From Bacteroidota bacterium (lineage in GTDB: Bacteria > Bacteroidota > Bacteroidia > Chitinophagales > Chitinophagaceae), in the NCBI GenBank assembly GCA_013285905.1, contig JABDGU010000003.1:1-64000 (forward strand): a stretch of 64,000 bases of DNA, read 5' to 3'. Both the position numbers and the translations under genes were made by a program. Within the stretch, counting starts at the first letter, position 1; every line of letters starts with the position of its first letter. Below the pieces are notes generated by a model, which saw only the letters and a list, made by a program, of their open reading frames with translations, made no database searches and was not told the DNA's origin. This document shows positions 3,001-32,135 of this stretch, piece after piece.

Positions 3001-6000
3001 ATAGAAGCCATTCTCAACTCCCGTTGCAGCAGTGAGGTTTAATGTTGGTGTCGTGGCATTGCTATAAATACCTCCATTGTTTACATTGTTATATGTCGAG
3101 CCGCCATCAGTGCTCACTTTCCACTGATAGCTTAAGCTTGCTCCTGTAGCTATAACACTGAAACTGGTATTATTGCCGGAGTTCATTATACTATTCACAG
3201 GATTAACAGTAATAAAAGGTGCGGTATTTACAGTTAGCGTAACTGCTGCACTTGTTGCTCCTGGTGTACAGGTGCCACCAACAACACATTGATACATATA
3301 TCCGTTTTCTGTAGCCGTTGCCCCTGTCAGGTTAAGATTGGATGTGGTAGCATTGCTGTAGATACCTGTATTCGTAACATTATTATAAGTAATGCCGCCG
3401 TCCGTGCTCACTTGCCATTGGTAGTTCAATGTAGTCCCGCTAGCTGTTACGCTAAAGCTGGCATTACTGCCGGAACAGATCGTTCTACTGACTGGATCGG
3501 TGCCAATAATTGGCGCTGTATTAATAGTTAAAGTAGCAGGTGCGCTGGTCGTACTCGTTGGTGCACAAGTGCCACTCACTACACATTCATATTTATATCC
3601 GTTAACTGTACTTGTTGCATTCGTCAGGTTCAGGGTTGCAGTGGTAGCGTTAGTATAAATACCGCCATTGTTTACATTATTATATGTCGATCCCCCATCT
3701 ATACTCACTTTCCATTGGTAACTTAATCCAGCCCCGGTTGCTGTTACACTGAAGCTTGTATTGTTGCCTGCACAAATACCAATGCTCGATGGATTCACTG
3801 TAACGGCTGGTGCTGTGTTAACTGTAAGTGTTGCAGGATTACTTATAACACTTGGGGTACAAGTACCACTTACCACGCATTGATATAAAAAGCCATTTAC
3901 ATTAGCTCCCGCAGCAGTTAAGTTCAACGTAGATGCTGTAACATTAGTATAAATACCCGCATTAGTCAGGTTATTATATGAAATCCCACCGTCGGTACTT
4001 ACTTGCCATTGATAAGTCACGCCCAGACCGCTGGCACTTACACTAAAAGTAGTATTAGTACCCGCACAGATCGTACTATTAGAAGGACTGGCACTTACAA
4101 ATGGGGTTGTGTTAATTGTCAAAGTGGCAGCAGTGCTTGTTGTAGTCGGCGTACAAGTTCCGCTAACTACACATTGATATTTATAAGTATTTACACCGGT
4201 AGTAACACCGGTCAGATTCAGCGTACTTGTGGTAACATTAATATAAATACCTCCGTTGCTAATATTATTATAAGTAATACCGCCATCCGTGCTTACTTGC
4301 CATTGGTAAGTCGGCGCAGTACCGGTTGCAGTTACACTAAAGCTGGCATTCCCGCCGGGGCATGCTGCAGCATTGCTTGGGTTTACGGTAACCGCAGGCG
4401 CTGTATTAATGGTCAGTGTCGCAGGCGTACTTGTGAAGCTTGGTGTGCATGTACCACTTACCACACATTCATATTTGTATCCGTTTGCAGCAATAGTTGC
4501 CCCCGTAAGGTTCAACGTAGCTGTTGTTACATTTGTATAAATACCCGAGTTAGTTAAATTATTATAAGTAGTGCCGCCATCTGTGCTTACTTTCCATTGA
4601 TAAGTCGGCGCAGTGCCTGTTGCTGTGACACTAAAGCTGGTATTATTGCCGGAACATATTGTACTGTTAACCGGGTTAACAGTTACACTCGGTGCTGTAT
4701 TGATCGTCAAGGTAGCCGGGTTGCTCGTGGCGCTTGGTGCGCAAGTACCACTTACAACACATTCATACAAATACCCAGTTACCGCAATTGTTGCACCAGT
4801 GAGATTTAGTGTGCTTGCAGTAACATTAGTATAAATACCTCCGTTGCTTAAAGAAGTATAACTTATACCTCCATCCGTACTCACTTGCCATTGGTAAGTA
4901 AGTCCCAGACCTGTTGCAGTTACACTAAAGCTGGTGTTATTGCCTGAGCATATGGTACTGCTTACCGGATTCGTACTTACAGCAGGTACTGCATTTATCG
5001 TTAAGGTAGCAGCCGTGCTGGTTGCACTTGGTGTACAAGTACCGCTTACCACACATTGATACTTGTATCCGTTCGCGGTACTTGTTGCACCGGTCAGATT
5101 CAAGGTACTTGTAGTAGCATTACTGTAAATACCTCCATTACTTATATTATTATAGGTCGTGCCGCCATCTGTGCTCAGTTGCCATTGGTAAGTCGGCGCG
5201 GTTCCGGTTGCCGTTACGCTGAAGCTTGTATTGCCGGGACATATTGTGCTATTGCTTGGGTTCCCGGAAACGGAAGGAGCAGTATTAATGGTCAGTGTTG
5301 CGCCCGTACTCGTAGTATTTGGTGTGCAACTGCCGCTTACCACACATGCATACATAAAATTATTTACTGCAAAAGTGGCGCCTGTAAGGTTCAATGTGCT
5401 TGTAGTAGCATTACTGTAAATACCTCCGTTGTTTACATTATTATAAGTAGTGCCGCCATCAGTGCTAACTAGCCATTGGTAAGTCAGTCCCGCGCCGGTA
5501 GCTGTTATGCTAAAGCTTGTATTATTGCCGGAACATATTGTACTGTTTGATGGATTTACTGTAACTGCAGGTGCTGTGTTCACATTTACGTTCACGGTCA
5601 TACTGTTCGTATTTGTGCCATCGCTTACCTGTATAATAAATTGGTCTGCACCGTTGTAATTATTTGTTGGTGTATAAGTTAATCCTGTTGGTGTAATAGA
5701 TGTGCTTCCGGATGCATGACTAGCACCTGCAAAGCTTGATAACGTGCCGTGTGTCGGCGCCGTGCTTACTGTCCAGGTATCTGTTTTGGCTGCTTGCAGA
5801 TCGCTTATTGTCAGTAATGTATTAATAGGTGTTGCACTTGCGTTTTTACAAACATTAAAAGTCTGCGGGCTGGTATTGGTGAATGTAGGGACGGTATTGG
5901 TAACCATCGTATTCAGGTAAGACGAAATATTAGTTCCCTGGTAATTGGTAGCCACCATATCCGGTTTATTATCCCCGTCCATGTCCACGCCAACCACGCC

Positions 6001-29058: not shown

Positions 29059-29310
29059 GCTTTGTAAATTAAATGTTAAAATAATACTCCATCGAAGAGT
29101 AAGCCAAACTCTTTTTTTAGGACATAATGTCATGGATTTTTGCTTCGGGGTGTTATTGTAGACAACATTCTGCCATTACTGGTACTTCTAGTACTGTAGG
29201 AGTGAAAATCCCCTACTGGTTTCAGTGTTCCAAAGGACCACTGAAATCTGCCAATAATAAGAAGGTCTGCGACCGGCAGCATTGGACTATGGCCCAATAT
29301 CAAACCCTGC

Positions 29311-29421
29311 CCAGTTAAGCGTAGTCTTATAAAAAACAAGCCGCTCGGCGCCAATCTCCGATTGCGTCGTGGAGGAGAGCAATCTCAAGATTGCCGTCTG
29401 CGCTACCTTCCAGCCCATTAA
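29311..29421. repeat. Intergenic repeat, copy 1 (uninterrupted)
   Basis: A 44-bp block (starts CCAGTTAAGCGTAGTCTTAT) joined directly to a 67-bp block (starts TCTCCGATTGCGTCGTGG) that contains the palindrome GCAATCTCAAGATTGC. Copy 2 has the same two blocks with three mismatches in total. Similarity to copy 2 continues past 29421 to about 29475, beyond the point where the insertion sequence sits in copy 2. Confidence 0.9.
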
Positions 29422-29631
29422 CAAATTCTTCCCCTTACCTACAGCCACTTTCAGAGAAAAATTTGGATTCAGGCATCCCGATTTCGTAACTTTACACAGA
29501 ATTTTGACTCAATTATTAAGGTCAAACTTCTTTAGTTCTTTGAAAACGTTTTTTAAACCTCAAATTTTTAAACAAATGGGCAATGAATGTCAATTAACAT
29601 ATTGGTTGTCAATTGTTTGAGTGAAAAACAG

Positions 29632-29706
29632 TGGACAATAAGTGAGCAATAATGGGCAGAAACTGAGCAGAAACTGGGCAACAAATGAGCCACTTTGGGC
29701 AACACG
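29632..29706. repeat. 11-bp minisatellite, seven units
   Basis: Units of 10-11 bp: TGGACAATAAG, TGAGCAATAA, TGGGCAGAAAC, TGAGCAGAAAC, TGGGCAACAAA, TGAGCCACTT, TGGGCAACACG. The TGGGC-type and TGAGC-type units alternate, giving a 21-22 bp higher-order period, close to two helical turns. Confidence 0.8.
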
Positions 29707-29942
29707 AAACGAAGAAGTTTTTTTCCGCTCTATAAGCCTTGTGTACTTAGTGCGAACTTCGTCAACTTAGTGGTAAAAAAAGCAGCGCCCGGCAGGCAAT
29801 AAATGCCCGATTTATCATAAAATCAACAGAAACAGGGCATAAAATGTCCGATTTAATGTCCGGTGTTTTTATTGATAATCAATCATTTACGTTCAAAATG
29901 TCCGGATATTTGCAAAAAAATAGGACATCGGGCATTTTCACC

Positions 29943-30096
29943 CCAGTTAAGCGTAGTCTTATAAGAAACAAGCCGCTCGGCGCCAACAGTTTCAATGAGG
30001 CAATTTTCAAATCATTGTTATCGAATTAATCTCCGATTGCGTCGTGGAGGAGAGCAATCTCAAGATTGCCGTCTGAGCTACCCTCCAGCCCATTAA
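29943..30096. repeat. Intergenic repeat, copy 2 (43-bp insertion, then IS630)
   Basis: The 44-bp block (29943-29986) and the 67-bp block (30030-30096) are separated by 43 bp (29987-30029) absent from copy 1. The copy is then split by the IS630 element and resumes at 31239 (ACAAATT, then CAGCCACTTTC and AAAAATTTGGATTC), matching copy 1 from 29422 on. Confidence 0.88.
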
Positions 30097-30099
30097 TAA

Positions 30100-30687
30100 T
30101 TAACCGCCATCAATTTTGTTAAAAAAGGAATATCCATTTGCTAATCGTTTTACTGCATCAGTATTATTGTGATAGTCAGCTAAAGCGACAACCAAATTGT
30201 CTTCTACATCATCAAGACTGTTGAATATTTTGTTGTGGAAGAATTTTCTTCTGATTTCTCTCCAAAGAAGTTCAACCGGGTTTAACTCTGGTGAATATGG
30301 CGGTAAATGCATTAGGAACAGATTATCAGGCAGGCGGATATTTTTACTGATATGCCAACCTGCTTTGTCGAGTATGAGTACAATTCTATAGTGGCTATAT
30401 TGAACAGCAAGCTGTTGCAGGAAACAATTCATTGCCTCTGTGTTGCAATACGGCGCTATCATTGAAAAACAATCACCAGTTTGTGGCGCTATTGCACTAT
30501 AGGCATAAATGTATTCCCGGATCATTTGTCTGGCAACAGAGGGAACCATTTCTTTCTTTACCCAACAATACATTTCACGGCTTATTCTGCCGAAGCGACC
30601 TTCGTCTTCAAAAAATACAATTACAGGTTTGTTGTCACTTACTTTTGTTATGCGCCATGAGATGGAAGCCAGACGGTCGGGGAGTTT
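30100..30687 (-). CDS. IS630 transposase, catalytic part (orfB frame)
   Basis: DDE domain read in the -1 frame after the A8 tract. VIVFFEDEGRFG holds the first Asp, VLILDKAGWH the second, and SPELNPVELLWREIRR the Glu. These are the IS630 signature blocks. The first Met in this frame (30573) comes after the first Asp, so independent initiation would give an inactive protein. Translation probably arises by frameshift from orfA, making a protein of about 363 residues. Confidence 0.88.
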   Translation of the reverse strand, partial: KLPDRLASISWRITKVSDNKPVIVFFEDEGRFGRISREMYCWVKKEMVPSVARQMIREYIYAYSAIAPQTGDCFSMIAPYCNTEAMNCFLQQLAVQYSHYRIVLILDKAGWHISKNIRLPDNLFLMHLPPYSPELNPVELLWREIRRKFFHNKIFNSLDDVEDNLVVALADYHNNTDAVKRLANGYSFFNKIDGG

Positions 30688-31190
30688 TTTTTAAACTCCT
30701 GTTGTTCGGGCATATTTCTTTTGGGATGGTGTGGGCGTGGCATCTTCTTTTTCCAACCATTACGATTGAGCAAATCCCATAAGTAATCATCAGATACCGC
30801 TTTTCCTACTTTTGCTTCAACAATAATTCTTATGTCGTTAGCAGTTTTGACCAAGCCCTTTGCCGCCTTTTGCTCAATGGCATTCAATAATTCGGCTTCG
30901 TCTGAACTGCTTAACAATGACCGTCTTCTGCCTCCACGAAGAATATACTTAATACCTTTAGTGCCTTCTTTATTGTATTGTTCTACAATTTTGTAAATAC
31001 TGGATTTGGATAAATTTACCAAGGGTGAAATAATTGCTGCAGAATGAATCCCGGCAACTTGAACCATATATAAAATCTGCCATCTGCTAAATTCTGGTTT
31101 GCCTGCACAAGTTCCAAGTTGTTCTTTTAACTGAGCATCTGTAAGATGATTTACTAACTCTAAGGTTCGCATAAAAAGCAATTTGAACAT
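30648..31190 (-). CDS. IS630 transposase, DNA-binding part (orfA)
   Basis: 180 residues as read in frame. N-terminal helix-turn-helix region with VNLSKSSIYKIVEQYNKEG and a second helical domain with GLVKTANDIRIIVEAKVGK and SDDYLWDLLNRNGWKKKMPR. These are the IS630 leader blocks. Ends 13 codons after an A8 run at 30692-30685, where a -1 slip joins the catalytic frame. Start at the ATG 31190; a second ATG lies six codons on. Confidence 0.88.
   Translation of the reverse strand: MFKLLFMRTLELVNHLTDAQLKEQLGTCAGKPEFSRWQILYMVQVAGIHSAAIISPLVNLSKSSIYKIVEQYNKEGTKGIKYILRGGRRRSLLSSSDEAELLNAIEQKAAKGLVKTANDIRIIVEAKVGKAVSDDYLWDLLNRNGWKKKMPRPHHPKRNMPEQQEFKKNSPTVWLPSHGA
30685..30692 (-). promoter_or_regulatory. 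A8 slippery site, probable -1 frameshift in IS630 transposase
   Basis: Eight A residues on the coding strand (TTT AAA AAA AAC). A -1 slip continues as AAA CTC CCC GAC into the catalytic frame with no stop between. Programmed -1 frameshifting on A runs is known for IS630 relatives. A simple inactivating indel in the run cannot be excluded. Confidence 0.65.
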
Positions 31191-31238
31191 AAAGATAGTA
31201 AAATATTATTTTATCAATTTTGATAGCGGGTTATTATA

Positions 31239-32135
31239 ACAAATTATTTCCCGCGCCCACAGCCACTTTCAAACAAAAATTTGGATTCGCCTACCCTCAT
31301 TTTGTATCTTTATCTCAAATTTGAACGCAGTAACTATTTCAATCATTCAACACATTCAACTTATCAAAAAAACAAGTAAAAACTGGAAATTAAAACCCGC
31401 AAAAAGATACCCAAACAGCCCAAAACGGAAACCCAATGTCCCTAACCGGAAGAAAAGCGGAAAAAATATTTTAGATCAAAAAGTGGCTGTAAATGATTGA
31501 TAATCAATATAATAACACATATCAATCTCGAAAAAACAACCCAAAAGCGGAAAAAATATTGAACGGAAAAATCAGAAAAATATTTGCATTGGAAATCTAA
31601 AGCTGAGAATTTGCAAAGGCACCTTTTTTCGCGCCTGAGATGAGCAATACGTTAAATCGAAGAGCCAAAATTATCGTCTGCAAAAAGGTAAATAGCGATA
31701 CAAGCGAACTACTTCTTGAACACAAACAAAAAAAATAATAATGAAGTTCAAAAAAGCCAGTGCCCCAAAATCGGAGTTACCTGCGCTACATGCCGCCAAG
31801 CTATACTTCTGATACGCGGAGCGATTTATCAGAAGGTGGCCTTTTCTTTGTTTCGTTTCTGGCGCCTGTCCCGCAACTGCGGGAGCCACCCAAAAGAAAT
31901 GAAAACTCGCGAAGGACAAGTGTTGACGTGAGATTGCTTCTCCCGATAACTATCGGGATCACAATGACGAACGCGAGAAACATTTGCATACGCAACAGAT
32001 GAGATTGTGGCTCGGAGGATCGCTATGACAAAAGCGAGAAACAAAAAAAGCTTACTGCAATTCAAGCTAATCCTTAAACTCTTTTCACCGAGACAATGGG
32101 TTCTTATGAACGAGGTAATCAGCTTAATCAGCGGT
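31239..32135. other. Non-coding, repeat-containing region
   Basis: About 0.9 kb without a convincing gene. 31239-31330 is the right remainder of repeat copy 2. ATTGATAATCAAT recurs at 31496-31508. GCGGAAAAAATATT occurs twice (about 31456 and 31548). Two perfect hairpins with similar layout, CCCGCAACTGCGGG (31870-31883) and CCCGATAACTATCGGG (31942-31957), look like dispersed extragenic palindromes. Short overlapping frames on both strands at 31671-32065 appear to be shadows of this repeat. Confidence 0.65.

Follow-up and report, generated by a model that had tools for sequence, protein, structure and literature searches.

An IS630-family insertion sequence at a TA within a repeat carrying a putative promoter in a Chitinophagaceae genome

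The window analysed here is a 64,000-nucleotide stretch from a Bacteroidota bacterium of the family Chitinophagaceae (assembly GCA_013285905.1, contig JABDGU010000003.1, positions 1 to 64,000 of the forward strand), part of a 2.5-Mb draft genome of 129 contigs estimated to be 60.78% complete. Between a DnaJ-domain gene on the left and an M1 peptidase gene on the right, both on the minus strand, lie two plus-strand copies of one repeat, the second of which contains a 1141-bp insertion sequence (IS) of the IS630 family (30096–31236, minus strand), identified by Pfam and NCBIfam matches and delimited with the help of its relatives' ends. A short tandem repeat with a period of about 22 bp (TGGGCAAAAAATGAGCAAAAA) occupies positions 29632–29690 between both copies.

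Copy 1 (29310–29518) consists of a hairpin-rich left block and a promoter cassette, and in a copy-against-copy alignment it is contiguous across blocks 29310–29354, 29353–29424 and 29419–29518, reading CCCAT-TA-ACAAATT through an empty-site TA at 29419–29420. An initial annotation had also described this copy as uninterrupted, over 29311–29475. Copy 2 opens with a block 98% identical to copy 1 over 45 nt (29942–29986), continues with 41 bases that copy 1 lacks (29987–30027), and returns to a second block (30028–30095, left TA included) whose alignment to copy 1, extending to 30099, is 96% identical over 72 nt. The filled site then reads CCCAT-TA (30094–30095), the element, and TA (31237–31238) ACAAATT, after which the right half of the repeat resumes (31237–31336), with 72% identity to copy 1 over 100 nt; a genome search with copy 1 scored the same half at 78% over 76 nt (E = 1.4e-10). 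The similarity of the two copies is far beyond chance.

Searching the genome with copy 1 returned 19 matches, four of them within the window's own two copies, and revealed a bipartite repeat. Its left block, AAGCGTAGTCTT...CAATCTCCGATT, is also found by itself. In the right cassette, aligned from 25 of 26 hits (the weak hit L083, at 20.7 bits, was excluded), CCTTCCAGCCCATTAACAA, CCCGCTCCCACAGCCACTTTCA and AAAAATTTGG follow one another in that order, and a spacer that is constant among copies leads on to TAnnTTT; conservation reaches as much as 55 nt upstream of the −33 box. Bacteroidota promoters carry a TTTG box at −33, and the final two cassette elements are the predicted promoter boxes of this phylum. 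The corresponding −7 consensus is given as TAnnTTTG (PMC9723704). In copy 1 the putative promoter spans 29462–29494 by alignment and motif (TTTG at 29462–29465, TAACTTTA at 29487–29494), and in copy 2 the boxes lie at 31280–31283 (TTTG) and 31305–31312 (TATCTTTA).

A DNA search of 99 genomes located the cassette in two, this genome and a congener. A sequence model built from the 25 copies gave 21 matches here and 30 in the congener, including 12 strong copies (above 60 bits) in this incomplete genome and 20 in the congener, with all remaining matches below 55 bits. The model was also run, under stricter filters that lose some weak matches, on 59 further genomes of the family: two had a match, and neither exceeded 22.5 bits. 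Both promoter boxes, at a constant spacing, are present in 32 of 32 strong copies, a count that is partly circular because the model was built on 25 such sequences, which include most of the 32. Rfam yielded no hit in the repeat region, the one sub-threshold match being STnc410 at 21.2 bits against a threshold of 50, and six longer repeat loci, out of many, searched at gathering scores returned one tRNA only. Sequence 3’ of the cassettes is a mosaic of further repeats in which the cassette strand is rich in A (over 450 nt, the mean content in 30 copies is 0.38 for A and 0.28 for T). In this region, within 900 nt after the cassette in the two cassette-bearing genomes (G000 and G001), 12-letter noncoding words from AAAAGCGGAAAAAATAT and ATTGATAATCAAT recur, each in 9–11 of 32 stretches.

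Many cassettes carry a second motif downstream of the putative promoter. The pattern [TC]TCTTT[GA] falls within 15–75 nt after the −7 box in 22 of the 32 strong copies, at 34–41 nt in 20 of them, compared with 5.0% of mononucleotide shuffles and 15 of 339 windows further downstream; it was chosen after viewing the alignment, a stricter first pattern having matched 3 of 32 at that distance, and because of their shared descent the copies should not be counted as 32 independent trials. Copy 1 bears GTTCTTTGA at 29535–29543 (plus strand), and a motif search of copy 2 found no such match at the usual distance from its promoter. This genome has 5 occurrences of a strict pattern combining the promoter with GTTCTTTGA, 3 of them in strong cassettes; the congener has 19, of which 13 are in strong cassettes; and 57 other genomes have 8 in total, while a reversed control gives 5 in all 59. 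Six further promoter-plus-motif hits were inspected: four precede a same-strand ORF at 235–715 nt, one meets a contig end and one is intra-ORF, so promoter and motif also occur together outside the cassette. The intra-ORF hit (L177) is probably due to chance.

We read the cassette motif as boxA-like and as a candidate antitermination signal, because 16S leaders in the same family show something similar. The occurrence of boxA at CRISPR arrays is reportedly the subject of a paper. The gamma-proteobacterial boxA consensus, GYTCTTTAANA (PMC5725501), is matched closely but imperfectly by GTTCTTTGA. In eight rRNA leaders from five genomes, [TC]TCTT[TA][GA], a pattern looser than that of the cassette and counted without a shuffle control, comes 25–67 nt after 13 of 21 candidate promoters. 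These leaders resemble the cassette in having TTTG or TTG, a spacer and TAnnTTTG, often with a boxA-like motif after. They differ from it, which counts against the boxA reading, in that the candidate promoter nearest the 16S gene lacks the motif in 6 of 8 leaders, and the strict cassette pattern is absent from three of the genomes whose leaders were read (G005, G019 and G023). The rRNA operons of the family seem to have two or three tandem candidate promoters upstream of the 16S gene (L142, L145 and L146), several of them followed by a boxA-like motif. We considered a derivation of the cassette from an rrn promoter and rejected it: the congener’s 16S leader has a promoter and a boxA-like motif in common with the cassette, but by eye lacks the conserved upstream block. 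A search for 16S in this genome found none, but since the search gave a signal in no more than 5 of the 12 genomes and in 9 of the 14 controls, its silence says little.

The position of the cassettes relative to genes bears on what the repeat is. In the window both neighbouring genes are on the minus strand; the cassettes are therefore directed towards the 3’ end of a gene read convergently, and copy 2 is followed by a listed plus-strand ORF only after 3.7 kb. By hand reading across the family, about 15 of the 24 copies for which a next substantial gene could be called have that gene on their own strand (one of these calls, C13, is doubtful), which is no strong bias; the remaining 8 of 32 were dropped from the count, one facing copy 2, six near contig ends and one uncertain. 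The repeat might simply be a conserved promoter that, together with a long leader, serves ordinary genes, as opposed to a dispersed element in its own right, a reading that we find quite possible, if short of probable. It would account for the same-strand genes, which begin about 0.3–1.4 kb away and presumably include rpsF, HU, porX, lepA and pckA (names read from their sequences), and for the four promoter-plus-motif hits ahead of same-strand ORFs. It fits less well with the roughly 9 of 24 copies that face an opposite-strand gene, the window’s copy 2 among them, with the conservation of sequence well upstream of the −33 box, and with the comparison to the congener. At the three loci compared (the window, the C1 HU locus and C6), matching sequence stops about 0.1–0.9 kb from the cassette and the cassette was found in 0 of 3 congener counterparts, indicating that at these loci the cassettes are placed differently in the two species. 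When the repeat was examined for MITE-like features, the left flank proved to be a mosaic, no common right end was seen, and none of the three loci offered a clean empty site.

The function of the cassette, like its mobility, is putative. A fuller proposal, which we regard as doubtful though worth stating, is that the repeats are genus-specific dispersed transcription units, each headed by an rrn-like promoter and in most cases marked by a boxA antitermination signal, many directed into noncoding DNA, that multiplied in two species of one genus, with an IS630 element in the upstream control region of one. The cassettes are possibly strong, antiterminated promoters spread between genes, or else a conserved promoter-leader type of ordinary genes; their promoters are predicted to fire. 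The cassette family departs further from expectation than the IS does. If boxA-marked promoters have indeed spread intergenically, Nus-factor antitermination would extend beyond rRNA in Bacteroidota. A literature search in which most subscription journals lay outside the scope returned no report of dispersed intergenic promoter repeats, of boxA in Bacteroidota, or of both together.

Turning to the interruption of copy 2, the junctions are exact relative to copy 1, in agreement with the initial annotation, which had the repeat split at TA, with TA on both sides, and resuming after the element. The annotation had also held that the window contains both the empty and the filled target; the two sites do align at the TA, but the empty one belongs to a diverged paralogue and is not an allele. 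It had not mentioned the 41 additional bases in copy 2, the divergence of the right half or the paralogy of copy 1. Copy 1 is, as judged by sequence comparison, a paralogous, diverged copy of the repeat and not the pre-insertion allele, so the original target could have differed from it by 1–2 bases; before insertion, the copy 2 site would read as unbroken CCCATTAACAAATT. An allelic empty site was sought in the single congener searched and none was found, synteny ending at the neighbouring peptidase gene. In another copy of the repeat (C4 of G000, L010), the hairpin block holds an AT-rich segment that by eye loosely resembles the 41 bp at 29987–30027, and a further insert of about 56 bp lies near the position of the IS target.

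The disparity between the two halves of copy 2 raises the possibility that the sequence resuming at 31237 belongs to a third, independent copy of the repeat, in which case rearrangement instead of simple insertion would have produced the arrangement. The left block is 96–98% identical to copy 1 and the right half only 72–78%, and the promoter part is found elsewhere without the left block. However, the interruption coincides precisely with a TA, which flanks the element on either side, and beyond it the repeat continues in register at ACAAATT. Relatives of the element show that these are its true ends, and other cassette copies are likewise only 72–85% identical to copy 1. We consider a third copy improbable, and take the two halves to be one repeat that was split by insertion of the element.

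The element is bounded by imperfect terminal inverted repeats of 22 nt, 17 of which are identical between the ends by a hand count (30097–30118, plus strand, and, by sequence comparison, 31215–31236, minus strand). Its transposase is encoded on the minus strand in two frames: orfA (30648–31190, 180 aa), identified as an ORF with winged-helix domains by Pfam (HTH_33, E = 1.2e-13), and orfB (30100–30690, with an ATG-started ORF at 30100–30573), which carries the DDE_3 catalytic domain (E = 1.9e-20) in a different frame. Joined by a −1 shift, orfA and orfB make a protein of 363 aa that scores 195.4 bits against the NCBIfam IS630 transposase model NF033545, above its cut-off of 100 bits and in keeping with the family originally assigned; singly, orfB scores 108.7 bits and orfA 64.5 bits, under the cut-off. 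The presumed catalytic residues, assigned by motif as D, D and E, are spaced D-78-D-31-E in all five elements compared. Transposase homology, TA duplication, terminal inverted repeats and a DDE triad are thus all present, and the element is apparently an ordinary, intact IS630-family IS; our confidence is high that it would stand as an additional member of this known family with the expected features.

ISY100, a studied IS630-family member of the Tc1/mariner superfamily, is a close known counterpart. It likewise targets and duplicates TA, has short imperfect terminal repeats and shows a two-domain transposase layout of N-terminal helix-turn-helix and C-terminal DDE domains (PMC2170065). In contrast to the two frames that overlap at an A run in the 1141-bp element described here, ISY100 has one gene and measures 947 bp (PMC2170065).

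The two frames join at TTT AAA AAA AAC, with a slip site A AAA AAC at 30684–30690 (minus strand) lying within a run of eight As (30685–30692). The orfB frame opens inside this run, directly after a TAA; this stop codon, which shares bases with the start of the run, closes the frame, so a shift must fall within the run or later. Slippage here would yield the orfA-orfB fusion, through either −1 ribosomal frameshifting or transcriptional slippage. RNA folding near the slip site does not exceed that of shuffled sequences (z = +1.43); it thus gives no evident stimulator of ribosomal frameshifting, and that route is not favoured over transcriptional slippage. Runs of nine As, or eight in some homologues, are described for IS elements expressed by transcriptional slippage (PMC1088944). 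The likeness is an orfA/orfB overlap at a conserved A run; the difference is that those elements are not placed in IS630 in that text, where the term does not appear (PMC1088944), and that slippage in the present element is proposed from its sequence.

Relatives of the element support this arrangement. A scan of genome contigs with the ATG-started orfB protein, which detects close relatives only, found eight loci: two in one Niabella MAG, one each in Terrimonas, a Ferruginibacter MAG and a Chitinophagaceae MAG, and three weaker proteobacterial loci that were left out of the reading. All five Chitinophagaceae-type relatives read carry the A8 run at the same place; one of them (L063) is decayed. 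The other four (two from Niabella, with Terrimonas and Ferruginibacter), at 66–74% nucleotide identity to the element, have matching terminal repeats, lengths of 1141, 1141, 1141 and 1145 bp between hand-chosen end strings, and a joined transposase frame open to the element end. Lying at other sites, they share the ends of the element, in agreement with the initial annotation, and TA flanks both ends in register in three of the four, the left TA of L059 lying one base further out; different ends or a missing TA duplication did not turn up in this alignment. Very unlikely, in our view, is that the transposase is a pseudogene and the IS dead, the A8 run being a frameshift mutation: the frames fail to join without slippage, the element is single-copy in its genome and a decayed relative exists, but the same A run and −1 arrangement recur in five relatives, four of them open; a shared dead allele would not remain so intact, and A9 and A8 runs at two-ORF overlaps are reported in IS elements (PMC1088944).

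We therefore return to insertion of an intact element, and consider it very probable that an IS630-family IS moved by cut-and-paste into the TA of a dispersed promoter-bearing repeat of a Bacteroidota genus, duplicating the TA, with its transposase made as a slippage fusion at the conserved A run and the promoter core of the repeat left intact. The insertion point lies 41 bp upstream of the −33 box; as the core is spared, any effect on the cassette would act through the loss of upstream sequence. The element presumably is or was active; its single copy means that a direct sign of activity is absent in this genome. Scoring at most four candidates per genome, 98 other genomes gave two short partial matches only (129 and 40 nt), and the element was not found in the one congener. 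The locus thus provides, for Bacteroidota, an IS630 member whose ends are cleanly defined and whose slip site is conserved.

Elsewhere in the window, positions 3379–5547 hold a tandem array of period 294 with 7.4 copies and 68% matches, possibly, at a guess, the gene of a repetitive surface protein.
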